Assembly: GCA_946478865.1 (NCBI GenBank)
Contig: CAMLDO010000009.1
Span: 17,714-81,713, forward strand
Direction: 5' to 3'
DNA length: 64,000 nucleotides
From: an uncultured Methylobacillus sp.
Lineage (GTDB): Bacteria > Pseudomonadota > Gammaproteobacteria > Burkholderiales > Methylophilaceae
Made by a program: the position numbers and the translations under genes. The notes beneath the pieces are model-generated. The model saw nothing but the letters and a program-made list of their open reading frames with translations. It did not search any database and was not told where the DNA came from. Shown here piece after piece: positions 4,317 to 57,487 of this stretch. Numbering within the stretch: position 1 is the first letter of the stretch; each line of letters starts with the position of its first letter.

Positions 4317-4366
4317 GGGGTGGAATTCTAGCAGGGTTGACCGCGCGATCTGTTAAAATCGCGGCC

Positions 4367-4972
4367 ATGTTTACCGGAATCATACAGGCCGTCGGCCAAA
4401 TCGAACGCGTCACGCCCGTGGGCGAGGATGCACGTCTTCACATCCAGGTCGGCGGACTCGACATGAGCGACGTCGCGCAAGGCGACAGCATTGCCGTCAA
4501 CGGCGTATGCCTCACCGTCGTGGAGTTCGACCACGAGTCCTTCAATGTGCATGTCTCCAGGGAAACCCTGTCCTGCACCATCGGGCTCGATACGCCGAGG
4601 GCGGCCAATCTCGAGAAAGCGCTGCGACTCGCGGACCGTCTCGGCGGCCACCTCGTCAGCGGGCACGTGGACGGCGTGGGCCAAGTAGTCAAGTTCGAGG
4701 CCGTCGGCGACTGTATGCAGCTTGTGATCCGCGCACCGCATGCGATCTCGCGCTATATCGCGGTCAAGGGGTCTATCGCGGTAGACGGGGTCAGCCTCAC
4801 CGTGAATAGCGTGGAAGGCGACGTTTTCAGCATCAACCTGATTCCGCACACACTGGAGATGACCACGCTCAAGTTCCTGGGCGTGGGCAGCCGTGTCAAT
4901 CTGGAAATCGACCCGATCGCCCGCTACGTCGAACGCATGGCGCAGTGGAACAACGAGCCCGAATCCGCATGA
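4367..4972 (+). CDS. ribE: Riboflavin synthase, alpha subunit
   Basis: Dismutates two 6,7-dimethyl-8-ribityllumazines to riboflavin. 201 residues beginning [12 protein letters not shown], the hallmark N-terminus, with two lumazine-binding repeats (about 1-96 and 97-195) that each carry a VNGVCLTV or VDGVSLTV segment. The ATG at 4367 is preferred over the upstream TTG at 4337 because every family member starts with MFTGI. A 6-bp inverted repeat CGCGAT/ATCGCG (4344-4363) lies just before the start; the 50-base gap is too short for an FMN riboswitch. The stop overlaps the next start as ATGA. Confidence 0.97.
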
Positions 4973-10868: not shown

Positions 10869-12005
10869 TCAGACGATGCCGAGGTGATCGAGCCCGGCGG
10901 ACAGATCCTTGTCCTTGGACTCCTTGCCTTCCAGCTTGATCTTGAGGCGCAGGTCATTCACCGAGTCGGCATTGCGCAAGGCATCCTCGTAGGTAACGAG
11001 ATCGGCCTCGTGCAGATCGAACAGCGCCTGGTCGAAGGTCTGCATGCCGAGTTCGCGCGACTTCGCCATGATTTCCTTGATCTCGTGCACTTCGCCCTTG
11101 AAGATGAGGTCAGAGATCAATGGAGAATTAAGCATGACTTCCACTGCAGGAACACGGCCCTTGCCTTCCTTCTTGGGGATCAGGCGCTGGGAAACGAATG
11201 CCTTGGCGTTGAGGGAAAGATCCATCAGCAGTTGCGCGCGGCGCTCTTCCGGGAAGAAGTTGATGATGCGGTCCAGCGCCTGGTTGGTACTGTTGGCGTG
11301 CAGCGTCGCGAGACACAAGTGGCCGGTTTCAGCGAAAGCAATCGCGTAATCCATGGTTTCCCGGTCGCGGATTTCGCCGATGAGGATCACATCCGGCGCC
11401 TGCCGCAGCGTATTTTTAAGGGCCGCGAACCAGTTCTCGGTATCCACGCCCACCTCGCGCTGCGTGACGATGCAGTTCTTGTGGTCATGCACGAACTCGA
11501 TCGGATCCTCGATGGTGATGATGTGACCGTAGCTGTTTTCATTGCGATAGCCCACCATCGCCGCGAGGGAAGTCGATTTACCGGAACCGGTCGCGCCGAC
11601 GAAAATCACCAGCCCGCGCTTGGTCATCGCGATTTCCTTGAGCACGTCCGGCAAGCCGAGCTCTTCGAACTTGGGAATCTTGGTGGTAATGGTACGGAAC
11701 ACCAGTCCGACGGAGCCGCGCTGAATGAAGGCATTGACGCGGAAACGGGCGACATTGGGCAAGCCGATCGCGAAGTTGCACTCCTTGCTCGCATCGAATT
11801 CTGCCGCCTGCTTATCGTTCATGATGGAACGCGCAATTTCCTTGCACTGCTGGTTGGTCAGGCTCTGATTGGTCACCGGTGTGACCTTGCCATCGACCTT
11901 GAGCGCAGGCGGAAAGCCGGACGTGATGAACAAGTCGGAGGCGTTCTTGGCCATCATCATGCGCAATAAATCGAATACGAATTTTTCTGCCTGTCCTTGA
12001 TCCAT
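10869..12005 (-). CDS. pilU: Type IV pilus retraction ATPase PilU
   Basis: Accessory hexameric ATPase for pilus retraction, a PilT paralogue. 378 residues. It has Walker A VGATGSGKSTSLAAMVG, the Asp-box region TIEDPIEFVHDHK, and LIGEIRDRETMDYAIAFAETGHLCLATLHAN around Walker B and the His box. The C-terminus LISDLIFKGEVHEIKEIMAKS takes the place of the PilT AIRNLIRE motif, which identifies it as PilU. It lies 42 bases downstream of pilT on the same strand. Confidence 0.95.
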   Translation of the reverse strand: MDQGQAEKFVFDLLRMMMAKNASDLFITSGFPPALKVDGKVTPVTNQSLTNQQCKEIARSIMNDKQAAEFDASKECNFAIGLPNVARFRVNAFIQRGSVGLVFRTITTKIPKFEELGLPDVLKEIAMTKRGLVIFVGATGSGKSTSLAAMVGYRNENSYGHIITIEDPIEFVHDHKNCIVTQREVGVDTENWFAALKNTLRQAPDVILIGEIRDRETMDYAIAFAETGHLCLATLHANSTNQALDRIINFFPEERRAQLLMDLSLNAKAFVSQRLIPKKEGKGRVPAVEVMLNSPLISDLIFKGEVHEIKEIMAKSRELGMQTFDQALFDLHEADLVTYEDALRNADSVNDLRLKIKLEGKESKDKDLSAGLDHLGIV

Positions 12006-12047: not shown

Positions 12048-13088
12048 TTAGAGTATGGCGTCCTTGTTGGTGGCCTTGGTGCGCGCCTCGTCGCTGGCAA
12101 CGATGTTGCGCCGCACCAGCTCCATGAGATTCTGGTCCAGTGTCTGCATACCGACATTCTGGCCCGTCTGGATCGCGGAATACATCTGCGCGATCTTGTT
12201 CTCGCGAATCAGGTTGCGGATCGCCGGTGTGCCGATCATGATTTCATGCGCCGCGACGCGGCCGTTGCCGTCCTTGGTCTTGAGCAGCGTCTGCGAAATA
12301 ACCGCGCGCAGCGATTCGGAAAGCATCGAACGCACCATTTCCTTTTCTGCTGCCGGGAACACGTCCACGATACGGTCGATGGTCTTGGCGGCGGAGCTGG
12401 TGTGCAGGGTGCCGAACACCAGGTGGCCGGTTTCCGCAGCGGTCAGCGCCAGACGGATGGTTTCAAGGTCGCGCATTTCGCCCACGAGAATCACATCCGG
12501 GTCCTCGCGCAGTGCAGAACGCAGCGCGTTAGCGAAAGACAGCGTGTGCGGGCCGACCTCGCGCTGGTTGATGAGGCAACGCTTGGATTGGTGCACGAAT
12601 TCGATCGGATCTTCCACCGTGAGCACGTGGCCGTATTCGTTTTCATTGATGAAGTCGATCATCGCCGCAAGCGTGGTCGACTTGCCGGAACCGGTCGGAC
12701 CGGTGACGAGCACGATACCGCGCGGATTCTGCGCGATGTCCTTGAAGATCGGCGGCGCGGCAAGCTGCTCCAGCGTCAGCACCTTGGACGGAATGGTCCG
12801 GAATACGGCACCCGCGCCGCGCTGGTGATTGAAGGCGTTGACCCGGAAGCGTGCGAGATTGGGGATTTCGAACGAGAAGTCGACTTCGAGATTTTCCTCG
12901 TAGAACTTGCGCTGGCCGTCGTTCATGATGTCGTACACCATGTCGTGGACCTGGCTGTGGTCCATGGCCGGCATGTTGATCTTCCTGACATCGCCGTGGA
13001 CGCGAATCATCGGCGGCAATCCGGCGGAGAGGTGCAAGTCGGAGGCCTTGTTCTTGACCGAAAACGCCAGCAGATCGGAAACGTCCAT
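12048..13088 (-). CDS. pilT: Type IV pilus twitching motility ATPase PilT
   Basis: Main retraction motor of type IV pili, needed for twitching and DNA uptake. 346 residues from the ATG at 13088 (MDVSDLLAFSVKNKASDLHLS); the open frame upstream is not family sequence. It has Walker A VTGPTGSGKSTTLAAMI, Walker B ILVGEMRDLETIRLAL, and the PilT-specific C-terminal motif AIRNLIREN. A purine-rich AGGGGA precedes the start. The divergent 46-base gap to yggS contains TATAAT at 13103-13108 and must hold promoters for both directions. Confidence 0.97.
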   Translation of the reverse strand: MDVSDLLAFSVKNKASDLHLSAGLPPMIRVHGDVRKINMPAMDHSQVHDMVYDIMNDGQRKFYEENLEVDFSFEIPNLARFRVNAFNHQRGAGAVFRTIPSKVLTLEQLAAPPIFKDIAQNPRGIVLVTGPTGSGKSTTLAAMIDFINENEYGHVLTVEDPIEFVHQSKRCLINQREVGPHTLSFANALRSALREDPDVILVGEMRDLETIRLALTAAETGHLVFGTLHTSSAAKTIDRIVDVFPAAEKEMVRSMLSESLRAVISQTLLKTKDGNGRVAAHEIMIGTPAIRNLIRENKIAQMYSAIQTGQNVGMQTLDQNLMELVRRNIVASDEARTKATNKDAIL

Positions 13089-19645: not shown

Positions 19646-20191
19646 TTATCGTTGCAGATCGGCTTCCACCGCATCACGCTGAGGTTTATCGGCGAGCAGT
19701 TCAACCAGCGTCAGCGCAAAATCCATCGCGGTTCCCGGCCCTTTCGAGGTGACGACTTTCCCGTCCGTCACCACCTTGTCGTTCAGATAGACATGCGTGC
19801 CGGGCAAGCGGTCGAGCACACCGGGGAAGCTGGTCGCGCGCTTGCCTTCCAGCAGGCCCGCCGCATGCAGCGCCATCGGAGCGGCGCAGATAGCGGCAGT
19901 GTATCTACCCGCAGCCGCCATGCTCTTCAGCATCGCGATAATGCGCGTATCGTTCTTGAGATGCTCCGAGCCCGGCATGCCGCCAGGGAGAACGATCATG
20001 TCGAATTCAGTTCCAACGGCTTCGTCGAGGGTCGCATCAGGCAGGAGCACCATGCCGCGGCTGGCCCGTACCGGGCCTGCTTCCAAACCGGCCGTAATGA
20101 CGGTGATACCGGCACGGCGTAGAATGTCCGCGACCGTTACCGCTTCCAGCTCTTCGCATCCTTGCGCAAGCGGGATCAATACCTTTGCCAT
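19646..20191 (-). CDS. DJ-1/PfpI (YajL-like) family protein
   Basis: 181 residues of the DJ-1/ThiJ superfamily, most like YajL. The N-terminus MAKVLIPLAQGCEELEAVT carries the conserved acidic residue of the active site, and the nucleophile-elbow cysteine is in AAICAAPMALHAAG near residue 100. Functions proposed for the family include stress chaperone and glyoxalase/deglycase; not decided here. Start at ATG 20191 because of a good AGGAGG 7-8 bases upstream. The foldback element begins 50 bases upstream. Confidence 0.9.
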   Translation of the reverse strand: MAKVLIPLAQGCEELEAVTVADILRRAGITVITAGLEAGPVRASRGMVLLPDATLDEAVGTEFDMIVLPGGMPGSEHLKNDTRIIAMLKSMAAAGRYTAAICAAPMALHAAGLLEGKRATSFPGVLDRLPGTHVYLNDKVVTDGKVVTSKGPGTAMDFALTLVELLADKPQRDAVEADLQR

Positions 20192-20240
20192 GGCTTGCCT
20201 CCTCGTTGTGGCATGAGCCGAGGATACTAACCTAATCAAT

Positions 20241-20432
20241 AAGGGCATGTTAACAACAATTTCACGCCTTCGACGCGGCAATTCGGAACGTCCGCCACGA
20301 AGCATGTCGCGCCGTTGTGCCGCCCACAACAAGCGACTTGCGACATCGGAGGGCGTTCCGAATTGCCCCGTCCCGGAGAGTTGCAGCCTTCTCGCTGCAA
20401 CACAGGTGCGAAATTGTTATTAACATGCCCTT
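20241..20432. repeat. 192-bp foldback (MITE-like) element with 23-bp terminal inverted repeats
   Basis: Left end 20241-20263 and right end 20410-20432 are inverted copies matching at 22 of 23 positions (left end AAGGGCATGTTAACAACAAT, then TTC). Inside, 20277-20290 and 20354-20367 form a perfect 14-bp inverted repeat (GGCAATTCGGAACG); ATGTCGC 20304-20310 pairs with 20340-20346; the centre GTTGTG/CACAAC (20314-20330) is a hairpin with a 5-base loop. The right arm also carries a private 7-bp hairpin GTTGCAG/CTGCAAC (20380-20401). No open reading frame worth calling and no clear target duplication. It fills the divergent gap between the DJ-1 gene and marC and ends 11 bases before the marC start. 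Confidence 0.75.
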
Positions 20433-20443
20433 GAGGGCACCAA

Positions 20444-21073
20444 ATGGACGAATGGAGCCATCTGTTCAAAGTCGGCATCGCCTTGTTCGCTATCGTCAAT
20501 CCGATCGGCACCGTACCGATTTTCGTCACTGCGACGGAAGGCTGGCCGGATAGCGACCGTACCCGCACCGTGCGCATCATCGCCCTCACGGTGTTTTCCG
20601 TGCTGACCGTGGCAATCTTCATCGGCGACAAGATCCTGACGTTTTTCGGCATCAGCATTCCCTCGTTCCAGGTCGGCGGCGGCATATTGCTGCTGCTCAT
20701 GGCCATCTCGATGATGCACGGACACTCGAACCGGCAGACGGAGCAGGAGGCCGAGGCCGCCGTCACGCGTGACGCGGTGGCCATCGTGCCGCTCAGCATT
20801 CCTCTGCTGGCCGGACCTGGCGCGATCAGCAGCATCATCATTACCGCCGAACAGAGTGGCGGTTTCTGGGGGCACCTGCTATTGGTGATTCCGGTGCTCG
20901 TCGTGGCCCTGCTGGTCTGGGCCATACTCAACCTTTCCATGGGCATTGCACGACAACTGGGCGCGGTAGGCATCATCATCGTCACCCGGCTCATGGGCCT
21001 GATCCTGGCTGCGATGGCGATCGAATTCATGACGCAAGGACTGGGCAGTCTGTTCCCGGGATGGCGAACCTAG
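20444..21073 (+). CDS. MarC family integral membrane protein
   Basis: 209-residue MarC/NAAT-type membrane protein with about six hydrophobic spans. Family signatures are FAIVNPIGTVPIFVTATEG at the N-terminus and VPLSIPLLAGPGAIS mid-protein, and the C-terminal stretch TRLMGLILAAMAIEFMTQGL. Physiological substrate is not known; older links to antibiotic resistance were not upheld. The right end of the foldback element lies directly upstream, and the GAGGG likely serving as ribosome site (20433-20437) follows it immediately. Confidence 0.92.
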   Translation: MDEWSHLFKVGIALFAIVNPIGTVPIFVTATEGWPDSDRTRTVRIIALTVFSVLTVAIFIGDKILTFFGISIPSFQVGGGILLLLMAISMMHGHSNRQTEQEAEAAVTRDAVAIVPLSIPLLAGPGAISSIIITAEQSGGFWGHLLLVIPVLVVALLVWAILNLSMGIARQLGAVGIIIVTRLMGLILAAMAIEFMTQGLGSLFPGWRT

Positions 21074-30837: not shown

Positions 30838-31236
30838 TTACTTGCGCCAACATTCCGCAGGAGTTTTATCGTTGCTTTGATTAATTGTCATAGGATTGCA
30901 CGAAACACCATATTGTTTATCCAGAGCTTGTTTACCTTGAGGCGTAGCGGTAAGAGTATAAACATTGGGATTAGAAATACTACCGGCGATGACAAAGGTG
31001 TAATAGCTAGTATTAACAGCACCGACAGAAGCACTCGTAACCGCATATTTCGAGTTGTTAGCTCGCCACTTTTCTTCTTGCAATTGAATATCAAGCATTT
31101 CTGAAATTGCTTCCGATCGCCTGCTTTTACGCACGAAATCTTGATATCCAGGCAAAGCAATCATAGCCAAAATAGCTACGATCACAACCACTATCATTAA
31201 TTCGATCAGGGTAAACCCAAATTGATTTTTTTTCAT
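30838..31236 (-). CDS. pilE: Type IV pilin-like minor pilin (PilE-like)
   Basis: 132 residues with a short class III leader: MKKNQFG then the mature start [19 protein letters not shown], with the conserved Glu5. The C-terminus holds two cysteines (VSC...AEC) spaced as a D-region disulfide loop. It is transcribed away from the fimT-pilW-pilX-pilV operon, across a 137-base divergent gap. Size and position fit the PilE-type minor pilin of fimT-pil clusters; the major pilin is more likely the separate gene at 39405. AAGGAGG sits at a good distance. Confidence 0.85.
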   Translation of the reverse strand: MKKNQFGFTLIELMIVVVIVAILAMIALPGYQDFVRKSRRSEAISEMLDIQLQEEKWRANNSKYAVTSASVGAVNTSYYTFVIAGSISNPNVYTLTATPQGKQALDKQYGVSCNPMTINQSNDKTPAECWRK

Positions 31237-36965: not shown

Positions 36966-36982
36966 CAATTTGAAAGATCAAT

Positions 36983-37014
36983 AAATAAACACCCGCCTCG
37001 GCGGGTGTTTATTT
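36983..37014 (+). terminator. Intrinsic terminator after the minor-pilin operon
   Basis: A 15-bp perfect inverted repeat AAATAAACACCCGCC/GGCGGGTGTTTATTT around TC, ending in a T-run. It closes fimT-pilW-pilX-pilV. Confidence 0.88.
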
Positions 37015-37124
37015 TTGAACTTCGGATTGATCAGCCACCTTATTAAGTATGTAAGTTCACGGTCAACTCTTCTCTACATCTCTGCGTTGAATAAATTACT
37101 TATCTATTTACATTTAATTTATTA

Positions 37125-38140: not shown

Positions 38141-38665
38141 ATGAAAAAGTTGTTTGCTGTTCTCCTCGCGTCTCTTCTGCCTTTCGCTGCCTCTGCGCAC
38201 GGACCGAGCCCGCAGAAGGTGGTTGAAACCGTAACGATCAAAGCACCGCCGGCCAAAGTTTGGGCACTGGTAGGCGATTTCAATGGCATGACCAAGTGGC
38301 ATCCTGCTATCAAGGCTAGCAAGGTCGAAAAAAAAGGCGCCGACACTTTCCGCACGTTGACTCTCAAGGATGGGGGCACGATCTACGAACGTCTTAAGGA
38401 CAAAAACGACACCGACATGCGTCTCAAGTATGAAATCGTCGAGGGGGTGCTGCCGGTCAGCGACTATTACGCGACTATCACCGTCAAGCCCGGCGCTAAT
38501 GCCAATGAATCGACAGTGGAATGGATGGCCCGCTTTTACCGCAAGTACAAGCTGAACCCGCCCATTCCCGCCGGTCAGGATGACGAGTCCGCTATCAAGG
38601 CGGTCAATGGGGTATTCAAACCCGGTCTCGCCAATCTGAAAAAAGTCGCAGAAAGCGGCAAGTAA
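38141..38665 (+). CDS. Secreted SRPBCC (MxaD-like) protein, copy 1
   Basis: 174 residues with a signal peptide (MKKLFAVLLASLLPFAASA, cleavage before HGPSP) and one START/Bet v 1-like SRPBCC domain: VETVTIKAPPAKVWALVGDF, KWHPAI and the C-terminal helix AVNGVFKPGLANLKKVAES. MxaD of methanol-oxidising bacteria is the best known secreted relative; the function here is not known. About two-thirds identical by eye to the next gene, so a tandem duplication. An A8 run at 38338-38345 is inside the gene. Confidence 0.87.
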   Translation: MKKLFAVLLASLLPFAASAHGPSPQKVVETVTIKAPPAKVWALVGDFNGMTKWHPAIKASKVEKKGADTFRTLTLKDGGTIYERLKDKNDTDMRLKYEIVEGVLPVSDYYATITVKPGANANESTVEWMARFYRKYKLNPPIPAGQDDESAIKAVNGVFKPGLANLKKVAESGK

Positions 38666-38690
38666 TTTTGTTTAAACCAGGAGAAACTGC

Positions 38691-39209
38691 ATGAAAAAAA
38701 CCCTCGTACTTCTTGCCGCCCTGCTGCTGCCTTTCGCTGCCGCCGCTCACGGCCCCTCCCCGCTCAAGTCCGTCGAAACCGTGACCATCAAGGCTCCGGC
38801 TGCAAAGGTGTGGGCACTGGTCAGCGATTTCGGCGCAATGGAAAAGTGGCACCCGGCCGTTAAATCCACCAAGACGGAAGAAAAAGATGGCTCCACTTTC
38901 CGCACCCTGACTCTGCAAGATGGCGGCACGATTCTGGAGCGCCTGAAGGACAAGAACGATGCCGACATGCAGCTCAAGTATGAAATTGTCGAAGGCGTGA
39001 TTCCTGTCAGCAGCTATAACTCCAAGATCACCGTCAAGGACAACGGCAACGGCGAGACGACAGTGGAATGGTTCGGCCGCTACTATCGCAAGTATGTTCT
39101 GAACCCGCCGATCCCCGCAGGCGAGGATGACGAGTCCGCTGCTAAGGCTGTGAATGGTATTTATCAGTCCGGCTTGGCAAATCTGAAGAAAGTTGCCGAA
39201 GGCAATTAA
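38691..39209 (+). CDS. Secreted SRPBCC (MxaD-like) protein, copy 2
   Basis: 172 residues, paralogue of the gene immediately upstream: signal peptide MKKTLVLLAALLLPFAAAA before HGPSP, then VETVTIKAPAAKVWALVSDF, EKWHPAVK and NPPIPAGEDDESAAKAVNG. The pair starts 25 bases after copy 1 behind a CAGGAGA ribosome site. G+C is closer to the core genome than in the pilin genes. A long hairpin follows its stop. Confidence 0.87.
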   Translation: MKKTLVLLAALLLPFAAAAHGPSPLKSVETVTIKAPAAKVWALVSDFGAMEKWHPAVKSTKTEEKDGSTFRTLTLQDGGTILERLKDKNDADMQLKYEIVEGVIPVSSYNSKITVKDNGNGETTVEWFGRYYRKYVLNPPIPAGEDDESAAKAVNGIYQSGLANLKKVAEGN

Positions 39210-39217
39210 TGGCACTC

Positions 39218-39404: not shown

Positions 39405-39857
39405 ATGATGAAGAAAGCTCAACAGGGTTTTACCCTGATCGAACTGATGATCGTCGTCGCGATCGTCGGTATCCTGGCCGCTCTGGCACTGCCGGCTTAT
39501 CAAGACTACACTGTCCGTGCCAAGATTTCTGAAGTAGCTGCACGCGGCGCTGAAGCAAAAACTTCCGTGGCTGAGTACTATTCCTCTCAATCTACGCTTC
39601 CGCCCAACTCTTCAGCAGCAGGTTTTAACACCGCTGCGGCAGGGTGGACAAGGTCGGTTACTTGGAGTCAAGCCAATCGCACTGTGACTATGGCTGTTGC
39701 TCCAAGCGCAGCACCTGCAGGCAAAATCACAGCAACTACCAATCAATTCGTCCTGTATATCACCCAAATCACCAACAGCCAGCTTGTATGGAAGTGCAAG
39801 GTACTTAGTGGTAGCAATCCTCTTCCGACTAAGTATTTGCCGGGTAGCTGCCGTTAA
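39405..39857 (+). CDS. pilA: Major type IV pilin PilA
   Basis: 150 residues (149 if the second ATG at 39408 is used). Leader MMKKAQQG, then the mature [21 protein letters not shown] with Glu5, followed by [14 protein letters not shown]. Two C-terminal cysteines (WKC...GSC) form the D-loop. The sigma-54 promoter, strong ribosome site (AAGGGG), strong terminator and size mark it as the major subunit rather than the PilE-like gene at 30838. A likely glycosylation gene follows. Confidence 0.92.
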
Positions 39858-57434: not shown

Positions 57435-57447
57435 AAGCCGTGCCATG

Positions 57448-57487
57448 GCAATAAAAAAGCGCGGAATTCCGCGCTTTTTTATTGCCG
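57448..57487. terminator. Bidirectional terminator: 40-bp perfect palindrome
   Basis: Twenty bases on each side of 57467/57468 are exact reverse complements, with core GCGCGGAATTCCGCGC flanked by A6 and T6. It ends folE2 on the plus strand and the protease gene on the minus strand. Confidence 0.92.

Follow-up and report, generated by a model that had tools for sequence, protein, structure and literature searches.

A foldback upstream of marC in an uncultured Methylobacillus sp. is probably a shortened copy of a two-hairpin mobile element

The DJ-1/marC locus

The stretch of DNA analysed here, called the window throughout, comprises 64,000 nucleotides from an uncultured Methylobacillus sp. A Pfam scan that took in four proteins neighbouring the element identified a DJ-1/PfpI family gene on the minus strand (19646..20191; PF01965, E 1.1e-48) and a marC family gene on the plus strand (20444..21073; PF01914, E 4.2e-55). 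Between their starts lies a 192-bp foldback, whose outer ends (20241-20263 and 20410-20432) are identical at 22 of 23 positions and lengthen to 29-nt arms at 90%. Inner arms of 25 nt (20272-20296 and 20348-20372; 88%) contain a perfect 14-bp repeat and enclose a 7-bp inverted repeat (20304-20310/20340-20346) and a central hairpin (20314-20319/20325-20330), while a private hairpin (20380-20387/20394-20401) stands to their right.

The original prediction had described this nesting of palindromes from the letters alone, and it is borne out: a repeat search confirmed the match of the 23-bp ends, the 14-bp and 7-bp repeats and the central and private hairpins were each located where it had placed them, and the fold exceeds chance. 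As RNA, the foldback reaches -111.1 kcal/mol, whereas 200 shuffles lie at -58.2 +/- 4.4 and never do as well (z -12.1), and it is very stable on both strands, 12 SD beyond dinucleotide shuffles. It is also the sole cluster of 20-bp inverted repeats (at most one mismatch, 30-260 bp) within the 64-kb window, and 20 trinucleotide-block shuffles of the window gave no such cluster.

Insertion between DJ-1 and marC

The closest relative found is Methylobacillus sp. MM3, whose MarC (87% identity) is the best of five MarC relatives in the genome collection and whose contig runs collinear with a large part of the window. The starts of DJ-1 and marC are 61 bp apart in MM3 and 62 bp apart in L002, compared with 252 bp in the window. 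By BLAST the two flanks of the MM3 locus join without a gap, and alignment to MM3 places the extra window sequence between CAATA and AGGGC. If a TA target is assumed, the junctions read CAA-TA-[AGGGC...GCCCT]-TG-AGGGC and the mobile unit would be 20242-20431.

Read in this way, the locus opens with the left TA of the presumed target (20240..20241), the first copy of the duplication, where the empty site of MM3, CAATAAGGGCC, has one TA. The left terminal inverted repeat (AGGGCATGTTAAC..., 20242..20269, plus strand) aligns with AGGGCGTGTTMACAC of full-length relatives. It is followed by the retained hairpin II of about 100 nt (20272..20372, minus strand), recognised by repeat search, fold, blastn to MM3 and alignment, and by a tiny junction hairpin that reads CCC-GGA-GAG, and CCC-NNN-GGG in relatives (20372..20380; sequence and 27-copy alignment). 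According to repeats and alignment, hairpin I, of about 100 nt, is cut down to a GTTGCAGC/GCTGCAAC stem (20379..20402, plus strand). The right terminal inverted repeat, located by repeat search, occupies 20404..20431 on the minus strand. From the empty-site comparison, the TG at 20432..20433 is presumed to be the second target TA with one change, and the alignment to MM3 marks 20434..20443 (AGGGC..., plus strand) as retained marC leader, the ancestral spacer to the right of the insertion.

No clear target duplication had been noticed in the original prediction; compared with the MM3 empty site, the left TA does fit one, and the right TG would require one change and leaves the duplication unproven. 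The distance of 11 bases from the element to the marC start had been given correctly. The further claim that the element supplies the entire upstream sequence of both genes does not hold, given that 49 bp separate the DJ-1 start from the element and that MM3 keeps both genes without it. Likewise, the statement that any promoters lie in the element lacks support, because an element-free spacer of 61 bp separates the same gene pair in MM3. We consider it highly probable (roughly 0.9) that the foldback is a mobile-element insertion 11 bp upstream of marC, with the empty site kept in MM3, and that it represents a shortened form of a non-coding element of about 271 bp.

Plan and distribution of the element family

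The full plan spans about 271 bp and consists of a terminal inverted repeat, a 100-nt hairpin, a tiny CCC-NNN-GGG hairpin, a second 100-nt hairpin and a terminal repeat. Lengths across 58 elements range from 175 to 322 bp (median 271 bp), and terminal inverted repeats are present across the copies examined, both in family 1 and in other subfamilies. The element carries no gene, its non-coding status being inferred from size and palindromy. An alignment of 26 full-length copies with the window copy displays a common plan from which the window lacks most of hairpin I; judged from this alignment, the 192-bp copy is internally shortened. Its kinship to the family is indicated by the same alignment and by blastn, in which it shares 79% identity with one MM3 copy over element positions 2-144. 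As a blastn query, the 192 bp found further copies in MM3, with matches at E<=0.001 in 3 of 187 genomes of the bacterial family.

With a full-length copy of 271 bp (L014) as the query and E<=1e-5, matches were obtained in 8 of the 187 family genomes and in 48 of the 399 genomes sampled from the order; judged by eye, they run end to end in five of the eight and about 17 of the 48, the others being hairpin parts. MM3 holds 19 matching stretches (E<=0.01), interpreted as five copies of full length, 11 matches to hairpin cores of other subfamilies and three matches of an end to the opposite end. At 17 loci of other subfamilies the hairpin core is common and the ends differ, yet the ends are inverted at all 17; 16 of these elements measure 262-295 bp and one 183 bp. 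Two copies at different places in genome G184 are 97% identical and have a derived insert in common. A covariance model of hairpin I, termed R1, matched 54 of the 398 genomes sampled across the phylum (E<=1e-5, at most 10 candidates scored per genome). Among its best 20 loci, one of which is an MM3 copy already known, the outer ends are palindromic at 18, and the two-hairpin plan is recognisable by eye at about 16.

Searches of plasmids with the window element gave short, weak matches (best E 0.04), and the element end alone was likewise weak. L014 had no match in plasmids or phages, another copy (L023) had none in 50,697 phage records or 20,395 E. coli-collection records, and other subfamilies were found on 1, 4 and 4 of 72,556 plasmid records. 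With plasmid and phage matches absent, weak or few, an origin from mobile replicons was rejected. Two plasmids carry end-to-end relatives of copy L154 in places without an annotated feature, one from P. aeruginosa (NZ_CP017294.1, 8550-8816; 81% identity) and one from Azotobacter (NZ_CP010421.1, 19134-19400; 85% identity).

The two 100-nt hairpins

Hairpin I is 98-101 nt long in 38 of 41 extractable copies, the other two of the 43 having yielded no match; copies of 84, 105 and 111 nt were excluded from subsequent counts. Across an alignment of 30 copies, the paired fraction of cells is 93.3% compared with 75.1% after shuffling, and 181 two-sided changes stand against 54 in shuffles, with none of 500 shuffles as high, in a test whose structure comes from the same alignment and whose shuffles ignore the relatedness of copies. 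These changes affect 22 of 34 pairs, so that letters vary and pairing is kept; sliding the partners by 1-3 columns reduces pairing to 34-47%. The unpaired core letters are conserved as well.

R1 finds hairpin II as well, at 12 of the 23 element loci, and the strand is invariably the reverse of that of hairpin I, which suggests inverted paralogy. By structure alone R1 matches the reverse strand of hairpin I in 10 loci (18-39 bits), and 5 of the 12 hairpin-II matches exceed these reverse-strand scores. When the two hairpins were aligned pairwise in 20 elements, the opposite strand scored higher in 15, equal in four and lower in one, and none of the 20 beat the best of 200 shuffles. The window copy yielded no R1 match, the best score (15 bits) lying elsewhere in the window. 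Judged on relatives only, hairpins I and II are probably inverted paralogues.

Mobility, target sites and decay

At six loci, a copy present in one genome is missing from another. Besides the window copy, which is absent from the DJ-1/marC locus of MM3, these include MM3 copy L011, absent at window 7587/7588, where the empty site has a single TA. Three further MM3 copies have empty counterparts, L032 in G052 and G002, L098 in G184, and L100 in G002, G178 and G036. A copy of a sister subfamily in G002 (L022, 1365-1622, with ends TAGAGCCTAT) is absent at window 4362-4367. Ten junction regions inspected for three loci gave six readable empty sites, two different spacers (L172 and L174) and two unalignable regions (L175 and L183). 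The genome search that the original prediction of a MITE-like foldback had proposed as its check speaks for that prediction, with several copies, related ends, varied places and empty sites at six loci.

Among family-1 copies, 17 of 26 have TA at both ends, 15 of these 17 reading Y-TA...TA-R by eye, and nine lack TA at one or both ends; these letters were read from the flanks of existing copies, not from fresh insertions. A TA duplication is readable at two empty sites (the window copy and L011), the other four being too diverged or without TA, and, TA being self-complementary, TA...TA may equally be the last bases of the inverted repeat. A target-site duplication of TA at Y-TA-R is therefore best called apparent, and it is extrapolated beyond the two sites.

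At 16 of 52 ends, the TAG of the element itself closes the longest stop-free frame (at least 100 codons), and such frames end at offsets 0, 1 and 2 in 19, 9 and 6 cases. This placement could be explained by selection against broken genes as well as by a target rule. No recurring neighbour gene emerged: the flanking ORFs number 58, some of them picked mechanically and possibly spurious, and no family among the 25 listed (of 74) matched more than two. We propose that a non-coding foldback of about 271 bp would insert for the most part at Y-TA-R, apparently duplicating the TA, and often at the end of a reading frame, where its TAG would act as the stop.

Copies also appear to decay. Twenty chosen regions around unpaired or overlapping end matches contained six exact 20-bp palindromes, two imperfect ones, one longer one, four of a 31-bp kind, one of about 52 bp and six lone ends. 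The perfect 20-bp palindromes, AGGGCGTGTTAACACGCCCT, occur at L082, L086, L087, L088, L090 and L096, and may be what remains after deletion between the pair of GTGTTAACAC stretches found in the arms, as those of 31 bp may be after deletion between CACGC stretches. Decay would then proceed via deletion between short direct repeats of both arms and leave palindromes of 20-31 bp, a route suggested by the junctions.

Regulatory function and the question of a mobiliser

A structured RNA or cis-regulatory element of DJ-1/marC would accord with the stability of the fold on either strand and with a position in the upstream region common to both genes, but we regard this reading as very improbable, given that MM3 and L002 have this gene pair without the element and that copies of the element adjoin varied genes (the 58 flanking ORFs). 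Since the element is missing from that pair in both, a promoter-supplying regulatory region was rejected as its origin; a secondary regulatory effect at DJ-1/marC may exist. One promoter-like match faces DJ-1 (20224-20253, minus strand), with TTAACA of the element's left end 18 bp from TAGTAT of the flank; it is a consensus match alone, one found against 0.4 expected by chance, and insertion of the element may have replaced the -35 box of a DJ-1 promoter with a new one. Single mismatches counted over 58 elements favour G-T over A-C in the outer stem (51 vs 25), as RNA would have it, and in the left hairpin (31 vs 12), but the excess is reversed in the right hairpin (12 vs 23) and missing both from the common pairs of hairpin I (32 vs 36) and from the outer 22 bp, where the counts in 44 elements are 26 vs 24, or 15 vs 13 without L068, L098 and L104, whose ends are mis-set. 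These mixed counts provide no consistent answer; they do not demonstrate a one-strand RNA and would be compatible with one, as with single-stranded DNA. At gathering score, Rfam had no match in the window or in nine element loci, and of 11 sub-threshold matches one (L023, E 1.2) fell within an element. The structured repeat RNA that had been offered as an alternative is accordingly disfavoured.

Given that the mobile element has no gene, a trans-acting enzyme would be needed, which would recognise its ends and perhaps its conserved hairpins. The element behaves like a MITE whose mobiliser can only be inferred, because the end matches listed and the surroundings of single ends revealed no autonomous relative. 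End matches in 20 genomes numbered 111, compared with 6 for a backward control, and inspection by eye of those listed showed no autonomous copy with an open frame between these ends; nor did one turn up around single ends, to a distance of about 1.5 kb, in 17 regions (15 in MM3 and two in G178). Family-2 end counts are near background (115 vs 53 in MM3 and 90 vs 80 in G178), and therefore some single ends are due to chance.

A classical MITE, that is, a deletion derivative of an IS (IS5-like, for example, with target YTAR) moved by the transposase of that IS via common terminal repeats, is a possibility that we hold in some doubt. Terminal repeats, Y-TA-R sites and small size agree with it, the target of IS5 being YTAR, and some ends of other subfamilies (GGAACCTCTGAACAAGTC and GGGAAGCTTTGAACAAGTC) are ones that we take to resemble the IS5 end. 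Against this, a full-length IS with these ends was not seen among the matches listed, which were inspected partly by eye in sampled genomes; DDE_Tnp_1 (PF01609) was found in two of seven element genomes, the other five being without a match at E<=1e-5; and the recurrence of the same hairpin core with different ends across subfamilies is needless for a simple deletion derivative. A REP/REPIN-like element, moved by a host-kept Y1 transposase (RAYT or TIRYT) that reads hairpins in single-stranded DNA, seems unlikely. It would account for a non-coding element with two conserved hairpins, probably mutual inverted copies, and an enzyme that is not self-carried; MM3 has two Y1 matches, and Y1 genes with long terminal repeats are mentioned in the accessible text of Di Nocera et al. 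(2013). However, Y1 matches (E<=1e-5) are missing from 14 of the 48 element genomes, including G424, where a single large contig carries all copies listed, R1 has no match at four Y1 loci, and the units are of about 100 nt, not 20-40. Y1 matches occur in 34 of the 48 element genomes compared with 196 of 351 others (p 0.06), the latter being set by the family-1 search and possibly containing other subfamilies. R1 had no match beside transposases at the four Y1 and three DDE loci examined, and no IS200-like protein is encoded in 182 element loci examined, a search that distant RAYTs could escape. Neither Y1 nor DDE_Tnp_1 is present in all element genomes, and either as the necessary mobiliser is unsupported.

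It can be speculated, as a tentative extension of the mobile-element reading, that the copies form a phylum-wide superfamily of non-autonomous foldback elements. The selected part would be the pair of 100-nt hairpins, terminal repeats would be exchanged between subfamilies, and the mover would be a hairpin-recognising enzyme, host-encoded or shared, outside both tested transposase classes; reading-frame ends would be favoured and insertion would be nearly harmless.

Relation to known repeats

No published description of the two-hairpin plan was found in the literature searched, which lacked most subscription journals, nor was an Rfam family found for it. NEMIS/Correia, ERIC, RUP, Nezha and Chunjie are described as bacterial MITEs in the accessible portions of two sources (PMC3733652, PMC10969869). 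As in the MITEs described there, the element is small and non-coding, has terminal inverted repeats, folds back, and is scattered between genes with presence and absence between relatives. Unlike them, as far as those portions go, it has two large hairpins and cores that recur with different ends, a partner IS was not seen among the matches listed, and hairpin I reaches the 54 sampled phylum genomes noted above.

REP/REPIN sequences share with the element a conserved hairpin pair, an extragenic position and movement in trans, if it moves at all. They differ in having 20-40-bp units tagged GTAG or CGTC, whereas the units here are of about 100 nt, an outer stem encloses them and the ends are TAGGGC, TAGAGCC and others; unlike REP/REPIN with a RAYT, Y1 was not found in every element genome, in a count that pools RAYTs with other Y1. 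Di Nocera et al. (2013), in the part of the paper available, describe Y1 genes that have long terminal repeats on either flank, some of these repeats being double palindromes. The TIRtron/TIRYT terminal repeats of that source (PMC3733652) resemble the element in being long, partly self-complementary and existing as separate repeat families, and TIRtrons, as far as described there, differ from it in the IS200-like protein, missing from the 182 loci (subject to the distant RAYTs), and in the hairpin, missing at the four Y1 loci.

The accessible text on intergenic repeats of P. fluorescens (Silby et al., 2009; PMC2718517) reports R178, of 101 bp with 11-bp inverted repeats inside it, and R200, of 320 bp. 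One hairpin unit is the size of R178, and a whole element falls somewhat short of R200, a likeness by description and not by sequence. Plasmids of Pseudomonas and Azotobacter carry element relatives, and identity of R178/R200 with the element is only a lead.

What had looked like a private regulatory palindrome would thus be a copy of a widespread repeat that keeps strictly to a two-hairpin plan and for which no catalogue entry was found. The covariance model of hairpin I is a means to annotate the element in other genomes, and a dedicated enzyme, if one recognises the hairpins, could be searched for by presence and absence. Such repeats can re-form stop codons and change the leaders of neighbour genes.

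Other repeats in the window

Two pairs of neighbouring direct repeats of about 500 bp, 38174-38666 with 38724-39210 (73% identity) and 11246-11776 with 12350-12880 (67% identity), are probably paralogous genes. A 71-bp inverted match (76%) links 31166-31236 and 39408-39478, 8 kb apart. Strong palindromes at 57447-57486 and 36974-37022, with T/A runs around them, resemble ordinary terminators.
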